Shown one piece after another: positions 51,452 to 60,569 of a stretch of 64,000 nt of DNA. This stretch comes from Hyunsoonleella pacifica (GTDB taxonomy: Bacteria; Bacteroidota; Bacteroidia; Flavobacteriales; Flavobacteriaceae), in NCBI RefSeq assembly GCF_004310335.1, contig NZ_SIRS01000003.1, forward strand, positions 1 to 64,000, given 5' to 3'. How positions within the stretch are numbered: the first letter of the stretch is position 1; each line of letters begins with the position of its first letter. The translations under genes were made by a program, and so were the position numbers. The notes beneath the pieces were generated by a model. It was given only the letters and a program-made list of their open reading frames with translations. It had not been told where the DNA came from and searched no databases.

Positions 51452-51964
51452 TTAAAAGTAATAGTGGATACCGCCGCCGCCATTAAAGCCACCAATAGAT
51501 CCAACACCATCGAAGGAAATATTAGTGTAACCTAATTCGAAAGAAAACGCTAAGCCTTCAATAAAGTCGTTAAAGGTCCATTCTATGCCGCCTCCTGCGC
51601 CTATAGCTATGGAATTTTGGTTGAATGACCCTCCAAAAAAATCATATTTGTACGTCCAGTATCCTACTTGACCGTATACATACGGTTGATACTCTGCAAA
51701 ATCTAAATCTCCAGATGTAAAATTGTAGGCATACCTTCCTGTAATAGACAAACTACTTTGTCCAGAGAAGGAAAAACCGTAATTAGCCGAACCTACAATG
51801 AGCTGCCCCGTATGCGTCTCAGTGAAATTGTATTTTAACGATGCGCCATAATTTAAGGACGTCCAAGCCAAACCTGCTCCAAAAGAGCCTGCCTCTGACA
51901 TTTGAGCATTAACTGTAAAGTGACTAGAAATAATTAAAGCGAAGACGCATATTATTTTTTTCAT
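51452..51964 (-). CDS. Small outer-membrane beta-barrel-like protein
   Basis: A 170-residue protein with signal peptide (1-20, ISSHFTVNAQ). Alternating-residue strands rich in Gly, Tyr, Phe and Ser follow (GAGLAWTSLNYGASLKYNF, YGFSFSGQSSLSITGRYAYNF-like, YGQVGYWTYKYDFFGG), and the C-terminus is GGGIHYYF, an aromatic end typical of outer-membrane barrels. An eight-strand, OmpX/OprF-like barrel is the simplest reading. It precedes the beta-helix gene by 40 bases. Function unknown; possibly a structural porin-like protein. Confidence 0.8.
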   Translation of the reverse strand: MKKIICVFALIISSHFTVNAQMSEAGSFGAGLAWTSLNYGASLKYNFTETHTGQLIVGSANYGFSFSGQSSLSITGRYAYNFTSGDLDFAEYQPYVYGQVGYWTYKYDFFGGSFNQNSIAIGAGGGIEWTFNDFIEGLAFSFELGYTNISFDGVGSIGGFNGGGGIHYYF

Positions 51965-51976
51965 GATGTATTTGTT

Positions 51977-51997
51977 TTATGTTTACCACAAACATAA
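51977..51997 (-). promoter_or_regulatory. Inverted repeat overlapping a -7 box upstream of the barrel gene
   Basis: TTATGTTT and AAACATAA flank a 5-base centre (ACCAC). On the minus strand the repeat includes TATGTTTG (51989-51996), an exact TAnnTTTG box 24 bases before the ATG. An operator at the promoter is possible; no -33 box at standard distance. Confidence 0.4.
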
Positions 51998-52167
51998 TTT
52001 CAATACGTTTTTCATGATTACGGGTAGCCATAAAACAGAGCTGCAACAGTGTTAATTAAGATAAAGTGAAGAAAAAAATCGTTAAGAAACACATTTCGAA
52101 AAAAGACGTTTTCAAATGAATAATTAGGCAATCAGAATAATTGAGATTTTAAATTTAGGTAAGCTAT

Positions 52168-53301
52168 TTAATAGCTATCAAACTTCCAAATACCATTTAC
52201 ATTAACCAATTTACCCTCCCAACTATTACCTTTTAGTCTTAAAAAACTAAAGAAATGGCTAGTATTTTTAGAACTTTTTTGAGCTTGGTAAGCCGCTTGC
52301 AGTTTAATGTAGTTCTCTCGTCCTTGTTCTGTTAATGTAAGTCTTACCAATGCTTCGGTTTTTGTATGGGATACAATATCTACATCTGTACTAAAACCAT
52401 AACTGTACGAGCTTGCTTCTATGGAATTTAACGTGGTGTATAATTTAGGGGTTGATGTATTTTTAATAGTTATTTGAGATTTACTATTTAATCCCCTAAT
52501 AAATAATTGTGCACTAGATTTAATTTTATCTAATACAACAGAGTCATCATTTCTATTCTTGGTGCTGGATGTATTTTGAGTACTTTTAGGCAGTACACAG
52601 CTAGGAGGTATTTTACTATAGGTGCCATTGGACACCGATAAGGTTTTGTAATACACCGAGCGCATTTCTATGGCCCCATCCCCTGTTATTTTATTGCCCA
52701 AAATATATTTACACCAATGGTTTTGTTTATTGGCATTATTAAAGGCTACACACAACAAAATAATTTTGGGTAAGGTAGTGTAAAGAAGGTTAGAACTAGT
52801 AAAATCTAAACTTACTGTACCATTAGCATCTATACTACTTTCTTGTTTTACAGAAATTGTTTGTTGCTCTTTTCCATAAAAAAGGGTAGCATTAACTGTA
52901 ACATCTCTTGCTGCAACAGCTCCAGAATTAGCAAGTTTTAAAAAAAATTTACGTTTATCTTTTAGCCATACAAAACTATCGTCTACTAAATGTATTTTTG
53001 CTGTAGTAAGTGGTGCTTTTTGTGTTATAGCCCCACTACTTTTCTGTTCTGAGGTTTTGGACGTAGCAGGTACTACCTGTATTTTCGCTTTTTCTATTTT
53101 ATCTGTGTCTACCTTAGGTATGGAATCAGCTACTTCTTTATTTTGAGAAGTATCAATTAAAGCATCATTGTTTATAGTATTGTCTGTTTTTTCTTCGTCA
53201 AACACATAATCCGCGAGCTTAAAAAGCACCAGAGCTATTACTAAAATTTTAGAGATGGTAGCAAGCCAAAATTTTATTTTACGTTCTGTTTTTAAGTTCA
53301 T
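52168..53301 (-). CDS. Membrane-anchored protein of unknown function
   Basis: A 377-residue protein with a single N-terminal membrane anchor (about 11-30, FWLATISKILVIALVLFKLA), a low-complexity Lys/Thr/Ser linker (about 35-95) and a beta-rich domain (about 100-200: VWLKDKRKFFLKLANSGA, VTVNATLFYGKEQQTIS) resembling a CARDB-like sandwich. A second beta-rich part ends in LVNVNGIWKFDSY. I do not recognise the family. It lies 9 bases downstream of the coiled-coil gene, and the two form a unit transcribed away from the lipoprotein/kinase cluster. It probably acts in the periplasm or inner membrane. Confidence 0.7.
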   Translation of the reverse strand: MNLKTERKIKFWLATISKILVIALVLFKLADYVFDEEKTDNTINNDALIDTSQNKEVADSIPKVDTDKIEKAKIQVVPATSKTSEQKSSGAITQKAPLTTAKIHLVDDSFVWLKDKRKFFLKLANSGAVAARDVTVNATLFYGKEQQTISVKQESSIDANGTVSLDFTSSNLLYTTLPKIILLCVAFNNANKQNHWCKYILGNKITGDGAIEMRSVYYKTLSVSNGTYSKIPPSCVLPKSTQNTSSTKNRNDDSVVLDKIKSSAQLFIRGLNSKSQITIKNTSTPKLYTTLNSIEASSYSYGFSTDVDIVSHTKTEALVRLTLTEQGRENYIKLQAAYQAQKSSKNTSHFFSFLRLKGNSWEGKLVNVNGIWKFDSY

Positions 53302-53310
53302 CCTTTTCTA

Positions 53311-54051
53311 TTAAATCAAATCATCAACCAAATCCTCTTCTAAACCTTCAAAATCATTTAAAAATTCTTCAAAAATATGTTCAGTACTTACCGCATCATA
53401 GTTAATTGATACGAAAAACAAGCCTATAGCTCCCAAAGTATTGTTAGCAAAATTTGCCTGTTTTAATTTACGTTGCAATTCTTCTATTTTTATTTCTAAA
53501 TGTGCAATCATTCTGGTTTTAATGGCCAAATCATCATTCATTTTTTCCTGTAAATTCTCAAAACGCATTAGTAACTTCTGTTCCATGTTGGCCACTAAGG
53601 TTTTTAGTGTTTGCTCTTCTACATCTTTTTTAAACGATATGTACTGTTCTTGCTGCTCTTCTATAAAAGCAATTTTTTCAGGTTTAGATTTAAAAACTGC
53701 TTGTATTACTTCATGCTTAGGTACATGCTGTTTATAATAGTCTTGTATTTCTTTTTGATGTGTTTTAGCAATTTTTAAAAATCGTTCTTCTGGGTTTTCA
53801 AAATAATAACCACAAAGTGTATTTAATGTTTTTACTGATGGTTTGTAAACTTTTTGCTCTAGTTTATCTTTTTGCAATGCTTCTCTAAGATCAAAAGCCC
53901 GCTTTATGGTTCGTGCATCAATTTCCTTTCTATCTGCCACCCCTTCGTCTGCTATTTTCTTATAGTCAATTTCAGGTTCATCAGCCAAAATCAGGTCTGT
54001 AATATAAATAAATGCGGGCAGGTATGTTTCTGAGAGTCTTGTGATTGGCAT
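53311..54051 (-). CDS. Cytoplasmic coiled-coil protein of unknown function
   Basis: A 246-residue charged protein with no signal. Residues 1-110 are helical with the segment YKPSVKTLNTLCGYYFENPEE (given in part: VKTLNTLCGYYF). Residues 115-205 have the heptad pattern of a long coiled coil (QEQYISFKKDVEEQTLKTL, AIKTRMIAHLEIKIEELQ). The acidic tail is FLNDFEGLEEDLVDDLI. No family is recognised. It is the first gene of the two-gene minus-strand unit and its ATG is 59 bases from the palindrome at 54110-54124, so it may be controlled with the divergent lipoprotein/kinase genes. Confidence 0.72.
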   Translation of the reverse strand: MPITRLSETYLPAFIYITDLILADEPEIDYKKIADEGVADRKEIDARTIKRAFDLREALQKDKLEQKVYKPSVKTLNTLCGYYFENPEERFLKIAKTHQKEIQDYYKQHVPKHEVIQAVFKSKPEKIAFIEEQQEQYISFKKDVEEQTLKTLVANMEQKLLMRFENLQEKMNDDLAIKTRMIAHLEIKIEELQRKLKQANFANNTLGAIGLFFVSINYDAVSTEHIFEEFLNDFEGLEEDLVDDLI

Positions 54052-54109
54052 ACGCCAAATGTAAATAAAAAACTTAAAAAATCTGTCAAAATACAGTACG
54101 TCATATCCT

Positions 54110-54124
54110 TCATGACGGTCATGA
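54110..54124. promoter_or_regulatory. Candidate operator: TCATGAC-G-GTCATGA palindrome in the divergent spacer
   Basis: A perfect 7-bp inverted repeat with one central base lies in the 203-base spacer between the coiled-coil gene and the first 52-residue lipoprotein. Further GTCAT half-sites are at 54100 and 54156. A two-fold symmetric regulator, such as the NarL-like response regulator encoded 2.6 kb away, is a plausible binder. Confidence 0.5.
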
Positions 54125-54254
54125 CAGCACTTTCATACCCCTAAACTATTCCTTTGTCATGTACTTGAAAAGTCACACCGGTTAACACTTTAGCAAGTAT
54201 GTAAACGTCCCAAAACTTTCTTAACCGCAAGTTTAATTTTTAAAATTTAATATT

Positions 54255-54413
54255 ATGAAAAGTGTATTTAAAATAGTGTGCTTAGGGGTTTTATTAGCTA
54301 TATCTGCAACCTCGTGTACAAAAACAGATTTAGAAGCTGAAAATGAGGAGTTAGTGCCTGTGCAAACTGAGGGAGGAGACGAAAAAGTTAAAGCCGTTCC
54401 AAGAGATGATTAA
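54255..54413 (+). CDS. Small lipoprotein, 52 residues (first of tandem pair)
   Basis: ATG at 54255, TAA at 54411-54413. A lipoprotein signal with hydrophobic core and lipobox ISATSC (Cys21) leaves a mature part of only 32 residues, acidic: CTKTDLEAENEELVPVQ followed by TEGGDEK and a short tail ending PRDD. It is followed at once by a strong terminator. The next gene encodes a near-copy: the signal region and the first 17 mature residues are almost identical, and only the tail differs. A membrane-anchored small structural lipoprotein or a lipoprotein-derived signal peptide are both possible; function unknown. Confidence 0.82.
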   Translation: MKSVFKIVCLGVLLAISATSCTKTDLEAENEELVPVQTEGGDEKVKAVPRDD

Positions 54414-54442
54414 TCTCTAGATATTTGTTAATTAATTATGAA

Positions 54443-54469
54443 AAACCGTACAATTTGTACGGTTTTTTT
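54443..54469 (+). terminator. Terminator after the first small lipoprotein
   Basis: Perfect stem AAACCGTAC / GTACGGTTT with a 5-base loop, followed by seven T. It lies 30 bases after the stop. Confidence 0.88.
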
Positions 54470-54510
54470 ATTTTTAACCTGATCTATTAACAATTTAAAT
54501 ACTAAATCAC

Positions 54511-54669
54511 ATGAAAAAATTATTCAAAGTAGTCTGCTTAGGGGGTTTATTAGCAATTTCTGCTACCTCTTGTACAAAAACAGATTTAGAAGCTGAAAAT
54601 GAGGAATTGGTACCTGTACAAACTGTAGGCGCAGATGGAAAGGTATTACCTCCACCAGAAGGCGATTAA
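54511..54669 (+). CDS. Small lipoprotein, 52 residues (second of tandem pair)
   Basis: ATG at 54511, TAA at 54667-54669. It has the same length as its neighbour and the same lipobox ISATSC (Cys21). It has the identical mature start TKTDLEAENEELVPVQT but a different tail (VGADGKV then LPPPEGD). The DNA is also similar, indicating recent tandem duplication, with conservation focused on the signal and the first half of the mature part. It has its own terminator, so the pair is probably expressed separately. It is followed 108 bases later by the sensor kinase. Function unknown. Confidence 0.82.
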   Translation: MKKLFKVVCLGGLLAISATSCTKTDLEAENEELVPVQTVGADGKVLPPPEGD

Positions 54670-54691
54670 TTTAAATTTAATTTTTTAAAGA

Positions 54692-54719
54692 AAAGTCATA
54701 CTATATGTATGGCTTTTTT
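54692..54719 (+). terminator. Terminator after the second small lipoprotein
   Basis: Stem AAAGTCATA / TATGGCTTT (one G-U pair) with a CTATATG-type loop is followed by a T-run, 23 bases after the stop. Confidence 0.8.
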
Positions 54720-54777
54720 CATTAGATTTATGGGATATTTTGTTATGTAACAATTAATTCAGACTATAATTTCTATT

Positions 54778-56700
54778 TTGAATCTCTCAATCAAACATTA
54801 TATTCTTCTAGTATTTACCATAATCGTATGCATTCTAGGGTGTGTAAATAACAAAATACCCAAAGAAACGTCTGAATCTTATCATCTATTAGAATTAAGC
54901 AAACAAAAGGAGAATACTGACGACCAGCTCAGTCTCATTAATAAAGCTTTTAAAGTATCCGAACAATATCATATTGATTCTTTACATCTAGCCATTGTTT
55001 CTAAAAAAGGGATTCTTCATCTACAAAGGCAACAACAGGATAGTTTCTTGTACTACAATCAATTACTATTTAAAAAATCTCAACAAATTAGCAATAATCA
55101 TTACAAAGCTAGAAGTGCTTTCAATTTAGGATATTATTATGACGAACATAGTGTTATACAAGATAGTGCCTTTTATTTTTATGTGATAGCCAAAAATACT
55201 TTTCTCTCTCAAAGAGATACATTAAGAATTGCTGAGACCTTGATGAATATGGCAATACTACAAAATATTCAGAATAATTTTTTTGGAGCAAAAGAAAGTC
55301 TAATAGAAACTTTAAAATATTTAAACAAAAGTCCTAACAAAAAATACATCGCTTCCGTTTATAGTGAGTTGGCTGCTAGCAATCATAAATTACTCAATTA
55401 TACTGATGCTGAACAGCTTTACAATAAAGCTATCGAAATCACTAATGACAAGAATGACGTATTAAAGTATAAAAATAATTTAGCATTCTCTTACATCGAG
55501 CAAAATAAACAACATGATGCCATACCAATACTAAAAAAATTATTGAAGGATTCGTTATTACAAAAAGACCCTGAGCTTTATGCTAGGGTATTACATAATT
55601 TAAATTATGCCCACTGGTTAAACGGTAATAAAGATGTATTGCCTGCTTTTTTAGAAGCATTGCATATTCGTAAAGAAACAAACGATAAGCGTGGACAATT
55701 ACAAAGTTATACCGATTTGGGAAAATACTATTCCAAAACAAACCCTGGTAAAGCGAGCAAATATCTAGATACTTTAATACTTATTTCTAAAGTGCTGAGA
55801 AGTCCTAGAGCTGAAACTGATGCTTTGAAACTTTATATGACATTATATCCTAAACAGGTAACTTATAAAGACCGCTATATCTTTTTAAAAGACAGTTTGT
55901 ACAAGCAAGAGCTAAAGGTAAAAACACAGTTTGCTAAAATGCAGTACGACGATCAACAAGAAAAAGCACAAATACAACAATTGCAACAACAAGCCATAGA
56001 AGAAAAAGCAGCATTAGCCGTACAAAAAACACAAAAAACACTGTTTTTATCGCTTAGTGGTTTGCTTTTAATTGCCGGTATATCATTATACTATGCCTTA
56101 AGGCAACGCCATAAAAAAGAAAAATTAAAAGAGGTTTATAAAACAGAACAACTTATTAGTAAACGGTTGCATGATGAGCTCTCTAACGATATTTACGGTT
56201 TAATGGCATCCATAGAGCAAAACCCAAATAAAGACAAACATTATTTACTTGATAATTTAGAAAAAATATATGGCCAAACTCGATCAATATCCCACGATAA
56301 CAGAGAAATTGCTACCGGTGCTGCATTTGCAGAAGAGCTTAAAGATGCGCTAAGTACCTTTTACAACAAAGAGACCAATGTAGTTGTAAGCGGATTAAAT
56401 TCTATCTCTTGGGAAAACCTATCAGACCACAAATGTATCGCTATACATAGAACACTTAAAGAGTTGATGGTAAACATGAAAAAGCATAGTGAAGCTACAT
56501 TAGTTGCTATAAATTTTAAAAATGAAAGTAAACTAATACGTATTAACTATTCTGATAATGGTATTGGTTTACAAGAAGATCAAAAATTAGGTGTTGGCCT
56601 TAAAAATACGGTTTCCCGTATTGAAGGTGTTAATGGGAAAATTACATTTGATTCTGAAACAGGTAATGGAACAACCATTACCATTACAATTCCTAAATAG
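54778..56700 (+). CDS. TPR-type sensor histidine kinase
   Basis: A 640-residue membrane kinase. The start is TTG at 54778 (an in-frame stop lies 30 bases before it). An N-terminal signal-anchor (about 5-22, LLVFTIIVCILGC) ends in a lipobox-like Cys. The periplasmic part has six to seven TPR-like helical pairs (about 40-380), followed by a coiled coil, a membrane segment (about 421-441, LFLSLSGLLLIAGISLYYAL) and a HisKA_3-like helix with His465 (KRLHDELSNDIYGLM). The HATPase domain has the N box at about 570, DNGIGL and GVGLKNTVSRIEG. The response regulator follows 9 bases later. The signal is unknown; the two small lipoproteins just upstream are candidate partners. Confidence 0.88.
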   Translation: MNLSIKHYILLVFTIIVCILGCVNNKIPKETSESYHLLELSKQKENTDDQLSLINKAFKVSEQYHIDSLHLAIVSKKGILHLQRQQQDSFLYYNQLLFKKSQQISNNHYKARSAFNLGYYYDEHSVIQDSAFYFYVIAKNTFLSQRDTLRIAETLMNMAILQNIQNNFFGAKESLIETLKYLNKSPNKKYIASVYSELAASNHKLLNYTDAEQLYNKAIEITNDKNDVLKYKNNLAFSYIEQNKQHDAIPILKKLLKDSLLQKDPELYARVLHNLNYAHWLNGNKDVLPAFLEALHIRKETNDKRGQLQSYTDLGKYYSKTNPGKASKYLDTLILISKVLRSPRAETDALKLYMTLYPKQVTYKDRYIFLKDSLYKQELKVKTQFAKMQYDDQQEKAQIQQLQQQAIEEKAALAVQKTQKTLFLSLSGLLLIAGISLYYALRQRHKKEKLKEVYKTEQLISKRLHDELSNDIYGLMASIEQNPNKDKHYLLDNLEKIYGQTRSISHDNREIATGAAFAEELKDALSTFYNKETNVVVSGLNSISWENLSDHKCIAIHRTLKELMVNMKKHSEATLVAINFKNESKLIRINYSDNGIGLQEDQKLGVGLKNTVSRIEGVNGKITFDSETGNGTTITITIPK

Positions 56701-56709
56701 CGCGCATTC

Positions 56710-57378
56710 ATGTTTAAAAAAATACTCCTAGTTGAAGATATAGATAGTATTGGACATGGCATGTCTTTAAAACTAGAACAGGATTTAGATATTAAAAATA
56801 TCACAATGACCCAATATTGTGATGATGCCTATTTAAAGTTTTTAAAGGCAGAGCAAGATCAAGCCCCATTCGATTTAATAATTACCGATCTTTCCTTTAA
56901 AAAAGATTATAAAAATAGTAGTATTTCATCTGGAGAACAATTAATTAAAAAATTGCGCAACCAAAACTATAACATCCCTATAGTAGTATATTCTGTAGAG
57001 GAGCGTCCTACGGTTGTTAAAAAGTTAATAGATTGGTATGATATTTCAGCCTATGTTTTTAAAGGGAGAAATAGTACTAAAAATATGGTTGATGCACTTA
57101 AATCCGTAAAAACAGGAAAACACTTTATATCTTCTGAAGTAACGGCTACATTTCAAAAAAATGAGGTTTTTACCCTTGAGGAGTTTGACACGATTATACT
57201 CCGTGAACTCTCCAAAGGAAAGACACAAGAAGAAATTTCTGCATATCTAAAATCTAAGGATATATCTCCAAGTAGTTTAAGTTCTATAGAAAAACGACTT
57301 AACAGATTGAAAGATGAACTTAAGGCAAAAACTACGATACAGTTAATCGCCAATGCCAAAGACTTAGGTTTAATATAA
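56710..57378 (+). CDS. Response regulator, NarL-like with divergent output domain
   Basis: A 222-residue regulator paired with the TPR kinase. The receiver domain (1-125) shows LLVEDIDSIGHGMSLKLEQ, the phospho-acceptor region FDLIITDLSFKK and the conserved Ser/Thr-Lys region (IVVYSVEE, YVFKGRNS). The C-terminal part (about 155-222) has the LuxR-like helix order (FTLEEFDTIILRELSKGKTQ, then ISPSSLSSIEKRLNRLKDEL), but the usual TVxxHxxNIxxKL recognition motif is replaced by SSLSSIEKRLNRLK. DNA binding is therefore likely but with altered specificity. It probably regulates this cluster. Confidence 0.87.
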   Translation: MFKKILLVEDIDSIGHGMSLKLEQDLDIKNITMTQYCDDAYLKFLKAEQDQAPFDLIITDLSFKKDYKNSSISSGEQLIKKLRNQNYNIPIVVYSVEERPTVVKKLIDWYDISAYVFKGRNSTKNMVDALKSVKTGKHFISSEVTATFQKNEVFTLEEFDTIILRELSKGKTQEEISAYLKSKDISPSSLSSIEKRLNRLKDELKAKTTIQLIANAKDLGLI

Positions 57379-57522: not shown

Positions 57523-59073
57523 ATGAAAACTAATCTAAAGCCTATATGGTATGGAGTACTCCTGTTTTGTACGCAATTCCTATTTGCACAAAAGGAAGAA
57601 ATCTGGGAAGAAGCAACTGTTTTTGAATTTGCATTACCCTACGAGACCATTACCATAAACTATGACGAAGAAAATTTTGTATTCAATGTTACTGACAAAA
57701 CAAAATTTTTACTTGGCAAAAAGAAATCTATTCCAAAGGAAAAAATCTCAATAGGTAGTACCGTAAATGTGGGTATAGTAATTGAAAACAGAAAACGCGT
57801 ATTAACAAAAATTATATTAGATAAAGATGACTATGGAGAGGTTAAAAAATTTGAAGGTGTGTTTGAATCTTTTGAAGGAGATACTGCAGTTATAGATGGC
57901 AGAAAAGTAGCATTAACAAATAATACCACAATAGAATGTAAAGGAGATCCAAATTGTGCCTGTAGTAAAGGGAGAAGTTTTTTAGGTTTTGATGAATTAC
58001 AGTTAGGCAGTTTTCTAACTGTCTATGGCGAACAAAATAATGATGGTGTTTGCATGGCTTCTAAAATAGAAGTATGCAAAAACACTTATGGCAAGGTAGA
58101 CCAAGAGTTTATGATGAGCTTAAGAAATGATTTTGATGCCTCAAACCTTAATCAATATAAAAGTATACCAAGTAATGTATTTAAAGCTGCTCATGGGCTA
58201 CACAATGGCACTATAAAAATGGGGAATTTAGAATTTAAATTACTGGATGATATTCGTATTCAAGGGTACATTAATATGATAGGAAATCGTGTGCTTCCCG
58301 CATACGCTAAAGAAGACAGTTTTTCAGAGAAGCATGATGTAGTTTTTAGATTTTATGTTATAGAAAACGAAATACCAAATGCCTCTGCTTTACCAAATGG
58401 TATGATATTTATTCACACTGGCTTGTTAAAACTAATGGAAAATGAGGCACAAATAGCAGCTGTATTAGGTCATGAAATAGCACATGTAACTTACGAACAT
58501 GGTATAAAAAGATACAAAACTACAAGGTTTACCAATAGCAACTTAGGTAAAAAAACCTCTAAATGGTTAAAGAAAGCATTCAAAAAGAAAATTAATATCA
58601 ACGAAAATTCTGTTTTAGGAAGCACATTAGATACTGCCTTAGAGTACACTACTCCAGATACAGTAATGAGTTTATTTAATAAAAAGAATGAAACACAATC
58701 GGACAGAGTTGGACTTTACTATATGGTAGAAGCAGGTTACGACCCCAGAGAAGCTGCAAATTTTTGGGGTATTATGAAAGATTACACAGGCAATCAAAAG
58801 TTTATAAATAAAATTTTTACCTCTACTCTAGGTATGGTAAACAATATTCAATCAGATTTAGATGAAACAGATTATAGTGCTTTGGGTAAAGAAGGTATGG
58901 ATCTTTTGGTAAAAAATTTAATGGAGACTATTTACACATCACACCCATTGGCAATAAAGAGATTAGGTGCTATTAATATCCTACTAAGCTCTACATATTC
59001 TGATACAGATTTTTCGAAGTTAGAAACGGGAGAGAAACCTTTTATGAATTATTTAGGCATTTTTAAACAATAG
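57523..59073 (+). CDS. Exported M48-family zinc metalloprotease
   Basis: A 516-residue protein with a signal peptide (1-22, LLFCTQFLFAQ). Two beta-barrel-like segments of about 70 residues (about 25-180, each with strand-turn patterns similar to DUF5666) are followed by a helical linker and the M48 peptidase domain. It has HEIAH at His317/Glu318/His321 (AAVLGHEIAHVTYEHG), and the third ligand is probably the Glu of KNETQSDRVGLYYM. Family members (BepA, LoiP-like) cleave misfolded envelope proteins. It is the first of three exported proteins, followed 2 bases later by the VWA gene. A quality-control role in the envelope is likely. Confidence 0.9.
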   Translation: MKTNLKPIWYGVLLFCTQFLFAQKEEIWEEATVFEFALPYETITINYDEENFVFNVTDKTKFLLGKKKSIPKEKISIGSTVNVGIVIENRKRVLTKIILDKDDYGEVKKFEGVFESFEGDTAVIDGRKVALTNNTTIECKGDPNCACSKGRSFLGFDELQLGSFLTVYGEQNNDGVCMASKIEVCKNTYGKVDQEFMMSLRNDFDASNLNQYKSIPSNVFKAAHGLHNGTIKMGNLEFKLLDDIRIQGYINMIGNRVLPAYAKEDSFSEKHDVVFRFYVIENEIPNASALPNGMIFIHTGLLKLMENEAQIAAVLGHEIAHVTYEHGIKRYKTTRFTNSNLGKKTSKWLKKAFKKKININENSVLGSTLDTALEYTTPDTVMSLFNKKNETQSDRVGLYYMVEAGYDPREAANFWGIMKDYTGNQKFINKIFTSTLGMVNNIQSDLDETDYSALGKEGMDLLVKNLMETIYTSHPLAIKRLGAINILLSSTYSDTDFSKLETGEKPFMNYLGIFKQ

Positions 59074-59075
59074 TT

Positions 59076-60569
59076 ATGAAACAGTTTATCGGTTTAAGTG
59101 TATTGTGCTGTATTATACTCTCTGTAGTATGGCAAACACCAAAAACAGCGCAATACCAAACTCCATTCAAATTAGAAAAGCTTTTAAAGGATTCTATAGT
59201 AAACAAAACATCTACCATATTTCTTATTGATAAATCCGGAAGTATGGCTAGGGCTGGAGAGAGCGGAAAACCTAAATGGGAAGAAGCAAAAGAAGCTGCC
59301 CTAAAAGCAACATCATCAATTTTAAAAAGTGATAGCAAAAATCAACAAGTCGCTTTTTTAACATTCTCTGGAGGTTGTGTTGAAGATCCTACCAAACAGC
59401 AAAACTTAAAATTTAGTAGCGATTATAAAGATATCGCACAACAACTTAAAGCTATTGGAAGACCAGGAGGAGGCACTCCCTTACACGAAGCTGTAATTTC
59501 AGCTAAAAAACGGCTTCAATATTATAGCTCTAACTATGGAGATGGCGATGTTTCTAAACTTATTGTTTTAAGTGATGGGGTGGCAACTTGTGGGCAGATA
59601 AGGCCTAAAGACGTATATGGTACAGGTACAACAATGGTAACAATCGGGACTAATACCCAAACTACTACACCTGCTAGAGGTAGCTCAACGCAACAACCCA
59701 ACGCCCCAAAAAATAACACTTATGGAAACACCTCCAATAGTAGCACCTCATCTAAAATGAGTTCTCTTGTTGGAAACACTAATATTCCCGTAAAGTATTT
59801 TACCATTGGTTTTGATATTAAACCAGGGTCGCCCGCAGAACGCGACCTACAATATTTAGCTGGCCAATCTGGTGGTAAATATCTTAATACCCAAAACGAA
59901 TTTGAACTCACTAGAGCGTTTACAAAGTTTTTTAAAGTTTACTATCCAAAACCCCAAAGTAGCATCCAAAATTTAGACTTTGAAAAAGCACACATGTTCC
60001 TTACTGGTGTGGAAGCTATTCAAGGAGAAAAATATAGGAAAGCAAAACAGCTATTTGAAGATTTCTATAAGGAGCATCAAAAAGATTTTAATGCTGCATT
60101 TAACTTGGCATTAATGTACGAGGCTAATGATTTTCATTTACAAGCTATTGAAAAATTTGAAACTTATCTAGCGCTTCATCCCAAAGCTGAAGATAAAGAT
60201 TGGGTTATTGAGCAAATACAGCTATTGCAAAATGATATGCTAAATTTTTATGATTACACTAAAAAACTTTTAAAAACAGATCTAGAATATCTAGAACACC
60301 ATTTTAAGAAAGTACAAAATGGAGAAAGTCTAGCCTTAGCATACGAATTCACTGGGTTTATAAAAGAAAAGGAATTTTACTATAAAGACTTGCCTTCCAA
60401 ATTAGGACTTGAAAGTAGGTCTAAACAAGAGTTATGTAACACCATACAGTCAGGTTTAAACAAATGTGCTAAATACATTAAAAAGGATCCTGAAAATTGG
60501 GACAAAAATGCAACATCCCCTCTTTCATTAGTATTTTTTAATCTAGAGATGCTTATCAATGCATTATAA
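59076..60569 (+). CDS. Exported VWA-domain protein with TPR-like C-terminal part
   Basis: A 497-residue protein. It has a signal peptide (about 1-20, CCIILSVVWQ), then a von Willebrand A domain (about 44-290) with a complete metal-ion-dependent adhesion site: FLIDKSGSMARAG (Asp52, Ser54, Ser56), a Thr in GRPGGGTPLHEAV and SKLIVLSDGVATCG. A Thr/Ser/Asn-rich insertion interrupts the domain (about 190-230). From about 305 there are TPR-like helices (FLTGVEAIQGEKYRKAKQ, FNLALMYEANDFHLQAIEKF). It probably binds partner proteins in the periplasm or at the surface. It lies 2 bases after the M48 gene. Confidence 0.88.
   Translation: MKQFIGLSVLCCIILSVVWQTPKTAQYQTPFKLEKLLKDSIVNKTSTIFLIDKSGSMARAGESGKPKWEEAKEAALKATSSILKSDSKNQQVAFLTFSGGCVEDPTKQQNLKFSSDYKDIAQQLKAIGRPGGGTPLHEAVISAKKRLQYYSSNYGDGDVSKLIVLSDGVATCGQIRPKDVYGTGTTMVTIGTNTQTTTPARGSSTQQPNAPKNNTYGNTSNSSTSSKMSSLVGNTNIPVKYFTIGFDIKPGSPAERDLQYLAGQSGGKYLNTQNEFELTRAFTKFFKVYYPKPQSSIQNLDFEKAHMFLTGVEAIQGEKYRKAKQLFEDFYKEHQKDFNAAFNLALMYEANDFHLQAIEKFETYLALHPKAEDKDWVIEQIQLLQNDMLNFYDYTKKLLKTDLEYLEHHFKKVQNGESLALAYEFTGFIKEKEFYYKDLPSKLGLESRSKQELCNTIQSGLNKCAKYIKKDPENWDKNATSPLSLVFFNLEMLINAL

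Follow-up and report, generated by a model that had tools for sequence, protein, structure and literature searches.

We propose, with a probability of about 0.7, that two tiny lipoproteins encoded in tandem in Hyunsoonleella pacifica are peptide ligands of the histidine kinase encoded beside them and that the tail of each is recognized by the TPR sensor of this kinase. The genes lie in the window analyzed here, that is, the whole 64,000-nucleotide stretch of contig NZ_SIRS01000003.1 (features in Table 1). The pairing of such lipoproteins with TPR kinases is well supported by sequence comparison; direct binding of the tail to the sensor, an effect on the kinase, feedback on the promoter, and signaling between cells are what we infer.

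Table 1. Features of the lipoprotein–kinase locus (window coordinates)
Feature	Position	Strand	Remarks
Operator-like element with palindrome GTCATGAC	54111..54130		Upstream of lipoprotein A; putative
Lipoprotein A, 52 aa	54255..54413	+	Cys21, conserved front 21–38, variable tail 39–52; ortholog in Hyunsoonleella ulvae
Block diverged vs H. ulvae	54370..55700 (approximate limits)		Lipoprotein tail, lipoprotein B, kinase residues ~1–300; from 100-bp identity profile
Terminator-like hairpin after lipoprotein A	54440..54468	+	Same hairpin type after the single H. ulvae lipoprotein gene
Lipoprotein B, 52 aa	54511..54669	+	Front as in A, tail different; absent from H. ulvae
Terminator-like hairpin after lipoprotein B	54689..54719	+	Hairpin with T run
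Histidine kinase, 640 aa, TTG start	54778..56700	+	TPR sensor, transmembrane helix, transmitter
Kinase sensor part	54847..56037	+	Modeled as all-helical TPR superhelix (AlphaFold2)
Response regulator, 222 aa	56710..57378	+	Response_reg 9.9e-7, just under curated cut-off; 100% identical in H. ulvae

Tandem lipoprotein genes upstream of a TPR histidine kinase

The two adjacent 52-residue lipoprotein genes of the original prediction are both present as ORFs on the + strand, and the near-identical fronts and differing tails ascribed to them were recovered as well, with the identity of the mature proteins spanning 18 residues from Cys21 (CTKTDLEAENEELVPVQT). The signal parts of lipoproteins A and B are unlike at four positions, and their last 14 residues are strongly divergent. 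Between A and B, codons 1 to 38 carry 10 synonymous and four nonsynonymous differences, and codons 39 to 52 carry four synonymous and eight nonsynonymous differences, a pattern that indicates constraint on the front and freedom in the tail and is not that of chance ORFs; the synonymous bias in the front, the H. ulvae ortholog, and the family-wide linkage described below rule out the latter. All Pfam and NCBIfam models scored below their cut-offs against both lipoproteins. This pair represents the only close copies in its own genome, in which a third, more distant copy (on C29) belongs to a class I locus (defined below) with its own TPR kinase. A mobile element found no support in a plasmid collection, in which the lipoprotein has no match.

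Each gene is followed by a terminator-like hairpin with a T run, as had been anticipated, and the region 53500 to 55500 holds three terminator-like sites (one on the opposite strand) compared to 0.5 ± 0.6 in shuffles; the stretch has no excess of promoter-like matches, with 10 observed and 9.4 expected by chance. The palindrome expected beside the pair, GTCATGAC, is found at 54118 to 54125, and the 20-mer that surrounds it has an identical copy before a related locus of another genus (L115). The kinase indeed starts 108 bases past the stop of lipoprotein B and matches TPR_12 (3.9e-11) and HATPase_c (6.3e-8), with TTG 54778 the sole ATG, GTG, or TTG within its first 50 codons. Its layout comprises a lipobox-like N terminus (CILGC, residues 18–22), TPRs at approximately residues 24 to 420, a transmembrane helix at approximately residues 422 to 440, and a DesK-like transmitter.

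Downstream of the regulator lie a gene for an M48 peptidase with DUF5666 (57523–59073) and then one for a VWA/TPR protein (59076–60569). No gene for a modifying or processing enzyme is found between the window genes, and the M48 peptidase gene follows the regulator.

Tiny lipoproteins are paired with TPR kinases across the Flavobacteriaceae

Weak matches of the window lipoprotein in relatives are other tiny lipoproteins, several of which are encoded directly before TPR kinases. We derived a profile from 13 tiny lipoproteins, searched 299 Flavobacteriaceae genomes with it (best ≤22 candidates per genome), and inspected every listed place down to an E value of 7e-8 for kinases. The matches listed to this value include 80 non-seed loci in 69 genomes; a same-strand kinase ORF lies directly downstream of the lipoprotein gene in 75 of these 80 (68 genomes). 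A widespread motif without ties to kinases, which would have counted against the original prediction, is not what is seen: the association holds, aside from a minor kinase-free context (L127, L129, L137, L144, L042, and L043). Kinases of the 75 listed loci all match TPR_12 (75/75), and nearly all match HATPase_c (71/75, E ≤ 0.001); their phospho-acceptor His does not vary. With the seed-derived loci added, the window and L003 included, a kinase is found at 83 of 88 listed loci; of the five lacking one, L133 runs into a contig edge, and the remaining four (L127, L129, L137, and L144) have a different context. Judged from hydropathy and reading, the 83 listed kinases have their TPR part between a signal-like N terminus and a transmembrane helix. 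A regulator-sized ORF sits right behind the kinase at 79 of the 83 lipoprotein–kinase loci, and of the remaining four, at least two stop at a contig edge. In a scan of 247 genomes from the phylum (E ≤ 1e-6, best ≤27 candidates per genome), eight gave a match, all of them Flavobacteriaceae, in a sample whose own share of Flavobacteriaceae is not stated; more diverged versions may exist in other families.

Three classes can be distinguished among the loci. Class I (44 loci) has the front CTKQDLNEDDVL, a tail often with TGG, and a regulator with DDHPMIIEGYQ, and a full LacI-type gene lies upstream in 41 of the 44. Class II tails carry Cys-Cys and poly-Pro and are rather conserved, and class III tails resemble ATEGDDGEVKPPPDD; the window pair is nearest to class III.

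The kinase-free context is marked by a CTKQELDEEN-like front (L043 6295–6979, L042 5057–7186, L129, L127, L144, and L137). In L042, L043, and L129, the lipoproteins adjoin an approximately 200-aa membrane protein and a small opposite-strand gene resembling an HTH regulator.

The reading that the original prediction named first, structural envelope lipoproteins with an incidental kinase neighborhood, would suit tiny, duplicated proteins with a conserved signal, and a related kinase-free context does exist; we nonetheless consider it very improbable, given the TPR kinase downstream at the great majority of the listed non-seed loci and a tail that tracks the sensor (see below), a covariation that such a role leaves unexplained. 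The same numbers support the reading named second, a lipoprotein-derived signal or kinase accessory.

We also started from the kinase. At E ≤ 1e-30, the window kinase as query had 53 matches among 60 genomes of the family, spread over 35 of them, and we examined 53 kinase ORFs, 52 of them from these matches and one an ORF cut by a stretch edge. A strict detector placed a tiny lipoprotein upstream of 24 of the 53 kinases; among 47 other ORFs from these stretches, it did so for two, and both cases are doubtful. Inspection of the remainder added five lipoproteins and nine tiny exported peptides that lack a lipobox (eight form one related group), for a total of 38 of 53 kinases with a tiny exported peptide; this step was done by hydropathy and eye, and the control ORFs apply to the strict detector only. 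No tiny exported peptide was found upstream of the other 15, one of which has too little upstream DNA for a judgment, and none was seen at the 53rd match (L244). Four kinases of the window's own genome that resemble the window kinase (L035, L037, L039, and L041) have larger putative lipoproteins (153–201 aa) upstream.

The lipoprotein tail covaries with the kinase sensor

In class I (n = 44), the distance between tails correlates with that between sensors (r = 0.515) and not with that between transmitters (r = −0.001) or regulators (r = −0.08); with transmitter and regulator removed, the partial correlation is 0.539 (0/2000 permutations). The front, that is, the signal and first residues, does not follow the sensor (r = 0.139, 109/2000; partial 0.071, 419/2000), which argues against a pheromone located in the signal peptide. 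The original prediction is partly supported: the duplicated tiny exported genes are real, but that the arrangement recurs across the family, and that the tie to the kinase lies in the variable tail and not in the conserved front, are points that it does not make.

Class I sensors come in two forms, short (24 loci) and long (20 loci), and tails with a C-terminal Arg or Lys occur in none of the 24 short-sensor loci versus 16 of the 20 long-sensor loci (Fisher 1.2e-8). The tail–sensor correlation is retained inside the long form (0.407, 0/2000) and is weak inside the short form (0.172, 57/2000). For 41 loci, we built a tree from LacI, transmitter, and regulator; it implies approximately 12 changes of sensor form, six of them forced by supported branches. 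Over six independent pairs on this tree, the tail goes with the sensor in 5.7 on average and against it in 0.0 (median p = 0.031). A tree without LacI (44 loci) counts 11 changes, of which two are forced by supported branches, too few for testing.

Because tail and sensor adjoin in the DNA, we also carried out a linkage test on 37 class I loci, leaving out seven that have tandem copies, unusual gaps, or little upstream DNA. The explanation at issue is that tail and sensor are exchanged jointly by recombination without touching one another, as their separation of approximately 100 bp and a diverged block that covers both relative to H. ulvae (see below) would allow. The intergenic DNA is short and somewhat tracks the sensor (0.281); it follows the transmitter (0.363), however, and not the tail (0.075, 183/1000), and the tail–sensor correlation remains at 0.577 (0/1000, n = 37) once intergenic, upstream, transmitter, and regulator distances are removed. 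Linkage is thus disfavored as the sole cause of the covariation, and we regard this explanation as improbable.

In classes II and III taken together (n = 33), the tail correlates with sensor (0.374), transmitter (0.257), and regulator (0.335). The tail–sensor correlation is not significant within class II (0.139, 177/1000) and borderline within class III, the window's own (0.214, 36/1000), for which these distances are suggestive of covariation. Candidate ligand and sensor therefore covary against a conserved background in class I and more weakly in classes II and III, and the case rests on class I.

The window locus differs from that of H. ulvae in tail and sensor

The sister species H. ulvae has the same locus with a single lipoprotein gene, lipoprotein B being the one missing. 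From 51800 to 54300, most 100-bp bins are 92 to 100% identical between the two species (one is 88%); identity falls to 66 to 70% in bins 54800 to 55400, is 85 to 86% at 55500 to 55600, and returns to 90 to 99% from 55700 to 57300. The kinase proteins correspondingly have an identity of 0.56 over residues 23 to 240 and of 0.98 over residues 421 to 640. Since the M48 peptidase gene is also less conserved than most neighbors (mostly 84–94%) and identity drops to 69 to 75% at 59600 to 59700, the block in Table 1 is the longest, not the sole, diverged stretch. In H. ulvae, an A-type hairpin comes after the lipoprotein gene, and the sequence beyond this hairpin resembles that preceding the window kinase, an order which indicates that the species differ by gain or loss of one array member. 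The tails of A and of the H. ulvae lipoprotein are fairly alike (4 of 14 codons nonsynonymous) though the sensors differ, so the ligand proposal fits here only on condition that the current partner is B or that contact is made elsewhere.

Arrays, repeated tails, and a local or intercellular role

Several loci carry more than one copy of the gene or of its tail. G106 has four lipoprotein copies in a row, G118 has four profile matches in a row among the matches listed, and G565 has ten matches in tandem, of which the eight readable ones have nearly identical tails. In G025, which belongs to the same genus as G565, one gene contains the tail unit three times; four of the 6 genomes of this genus have a single match each. 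The tail repeat is two-fold in L171 and L173 (by eye).

These features bear on where the peptide would act. One possibility, to which we give slightly under even odds, is that neighboring cells read the tail or lipopeptide, either after its release or on the outer surface of the cell that makes it, as a signal of density or kinship. Product dosage is suggested by tandem arrays, which reach ten near-identical genes, and by two- or three-fold tails; nine kinases are accompanied by exported peptides that lack a lipobox, as judged by eye; and repeated switches of sensor and tail type between related species, together with the diverged block in the window locus, would be in keeping with pherotype cassettes, which show comparable type switching and diverged blocks. 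Most of the peptides retain a lipid anchor, however, and no dedicated export or processing gene was recognized in the inspected loci. Alternatively, the lipoprotein may remain tethered in the periplasm of the same cell and keep the sensor in an off or on state, thereby reporting on the condition of the envelope or on the traffic of lipoproteins, for which NlpE/CpxA and RcsF provide models. We consider this tethered role plausible but somewhat doubtful: the lipobox, the exported TPR sensor, and the lipobox-like N termini of class III kinases would put both partners at the membrane, and any direct contact would give covariation, but alone it leaves the arrays of up to ten genes, the repeated tails, and the recurrent type switching unexplained. 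Taken together, arrays, repeated tails, lipobox-free homologs, and type switching favor a signal between cells; the anchor and the exported sensor also fit a local role.

If the intercellular reading is right, the Flavobacteriaceae would possess an undescribed Gram-negative peptide pheromone system of hypervariable lipopeptides or secreted peptides, encoded at some loci by arrays that reach ten genes, and exported TPR histidine kinases, in which tail–sensor units that switch type repeatedly between related species would divide these species into pherotypes; we advance this tentatively.

Predicted sensor structure and proposed mechanism

We modeled the window sensor with AlphaFold2 from a two-sequence alignment. 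The best of five models (pLDDT 74.7, pTM 0.58; the worst has a pLDDT of 48.0) is an all-helical TPR superhelix. Among solved structures, the TPR domains of LGN, most of them bound to partners, are closest to it (Z 28.4, rmsd 6.4 over 330 residues); the pheromone receptors RapI (Z 24.5, 4.4 over 315) and NprR (Z 22.7, 5.8 over 308) come next. TPR matches are frequent for models of this kind, and a common fold proves no function; peptide binding would be consistent with the model.

In the mechanism that we favor, with the tail as ligand, the conserved lipoprotein signal would export each peptide, the Cys would anchor it, and the conserved acidic front would act as a spacer or as a signal for sorting. 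The groove of the exported TPR superhelix would then recognize the short, variable tail at the C terminus, and binding of the tail would set the kinase and, via the kinase, the response regulator, with possible feedback of this regulator on the promoter of the lipoprotein genes. As tail and sensor change jointly, each lineage would hear its own peptide. Flavobacteriaceae commonly have TPR histidine kinases, for dozens of which this proposal offers a genome-readable candidate ligand, testable through a swap of approximately fourteen residues. If the peptides do act between cells, they would mediate lineage-specific exchanges in a large group of marine bacteria, overlooked by annotation because the genes are tiny.

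Relation to known signaling systems

Peptide signaling via kinases is well known in Gram-positive bacteria, in which agr (AgrD–AgrC) and ComX–ComP are peptide/histidine-kinase cassettes. The window locus resembles these in having a small exported propeptide gene beside a kinase and a response regulator and in the joint change of candidate ligand and sensor while the remainder is conserved; it differs in that the peptide would come from a lipoprotein, the sensor is a predicted TPR superhelix rather than a membrane domain, and the hosts are Gram-negative. No AgrB- or ComQ-like gene was recognized beside the window genes. The enterococcal sex pheromones cAD1 and cCF10 are also lipoprotein-derived, and here too a lipoprotein gene would be the source of a peptide signal; in those systems, however, the pheromone sits in the signal peptide, whereas in class I it is the mature tail that follows the sensor and not the signal and front.

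Adjacent genes for a propeptide and a TPR receptor are a feature of RRNPP systems (Rap–Phr, NprR–NprX, PlcR, and Rgg), the receptors of which are intracellular according to passages of PMC10075063. The likeness lies in an exported propeptide encoded next to a TPR receptor, as seen here at 75 of 80 listed non-seed loci, and in a predicted TPR fold near those of RapI and NprR; the difference is that the TPR part belongs to a histidine kinase and stands before a transmembrane helix and behind an export-signal-like N terminus. Because RRNPP receptors are intracellular and the Gram-positive cassettes use sensors other than TPR, we place the window locus in neither group.

Among Bacteroidetes, FimS–FimR of Porphyromonas gingivalis has a periplasmic sensor with eight TPRs, the signal of which is given as unknown, with a protein suggested, in passages of PMC5706477. 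The window kinase scores 37.8 bits against the FimS model NF053520 (cut-off 600). The PG1828 family lipoprotein (NF050142) is likewise a tiny Bacteroidetes lipoprotein, and its model gave 15.4 to 19.7 bits in four of seven lipoproteins scanned (cut-off 50), in matches that cover the signal part plus a few of the residues after it. We know of no established Bacteroidetes counterpart of peptide–kinase signaling, and a full-text literature search, with most subscription papers and preprints outside its reach, found no account of this arrangement; peptide signaling through lipoproteins and TPR kinases thus seems undescribed so far.

Upstream DNA and minor features of the loci

The upstream DNA of class I (43 loci) shares ATTAATCCATT-, CCCTC-, and TAACCTTAAAAT-like elements. 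Of 38 stretches upstream of class II/III genes, 13 contain ACTTCTCA and 12 contain ACTTCCCA, many more than expected from shuffles, and often as inverted pairs; neither was found before the window pair. The cognate regulator may control the lipoprotein promoter. A scan of the window's own genome with the class I upstream motif gave one place, with 3 mismatches, which is the motif's own locus, but a reversed control matched twice, so the scan says little and shows no regulon. In the leaders of three class III loci (L125, L152, and L157), a long inverted repeat of the GGGTGGCTG...CAGCCACCC type lies directly before the lipoprotein gene and is perhaps an attenuator or RNA structure.

A divergent gene of approximately 200 to 225 aa is found upstream of some class II/III loci (L045 2125–2784, L048 2839–3513, and L133 582–1187, all on the – strand), with 34% identity between those of L045 and L048. 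The divergent gene of the window (53311–54051) does not match that of L048, and we therefore rejected the divergent neighbor as a common part of these loci.

Lipobox-like N termini are found in the class III kinases of the window (CILGC, 54778–54850), L115, L121, L125, L146, and L157, so these kinases may themselves be lipid-anchored or cleaved there. Finally, TTG starts are frequent among class I kinases (e.g., L036 and L080–L092) and recur at the window kinase, while the adjacent lipoprotein genes use ATG; such a start may hold receptor expression low.
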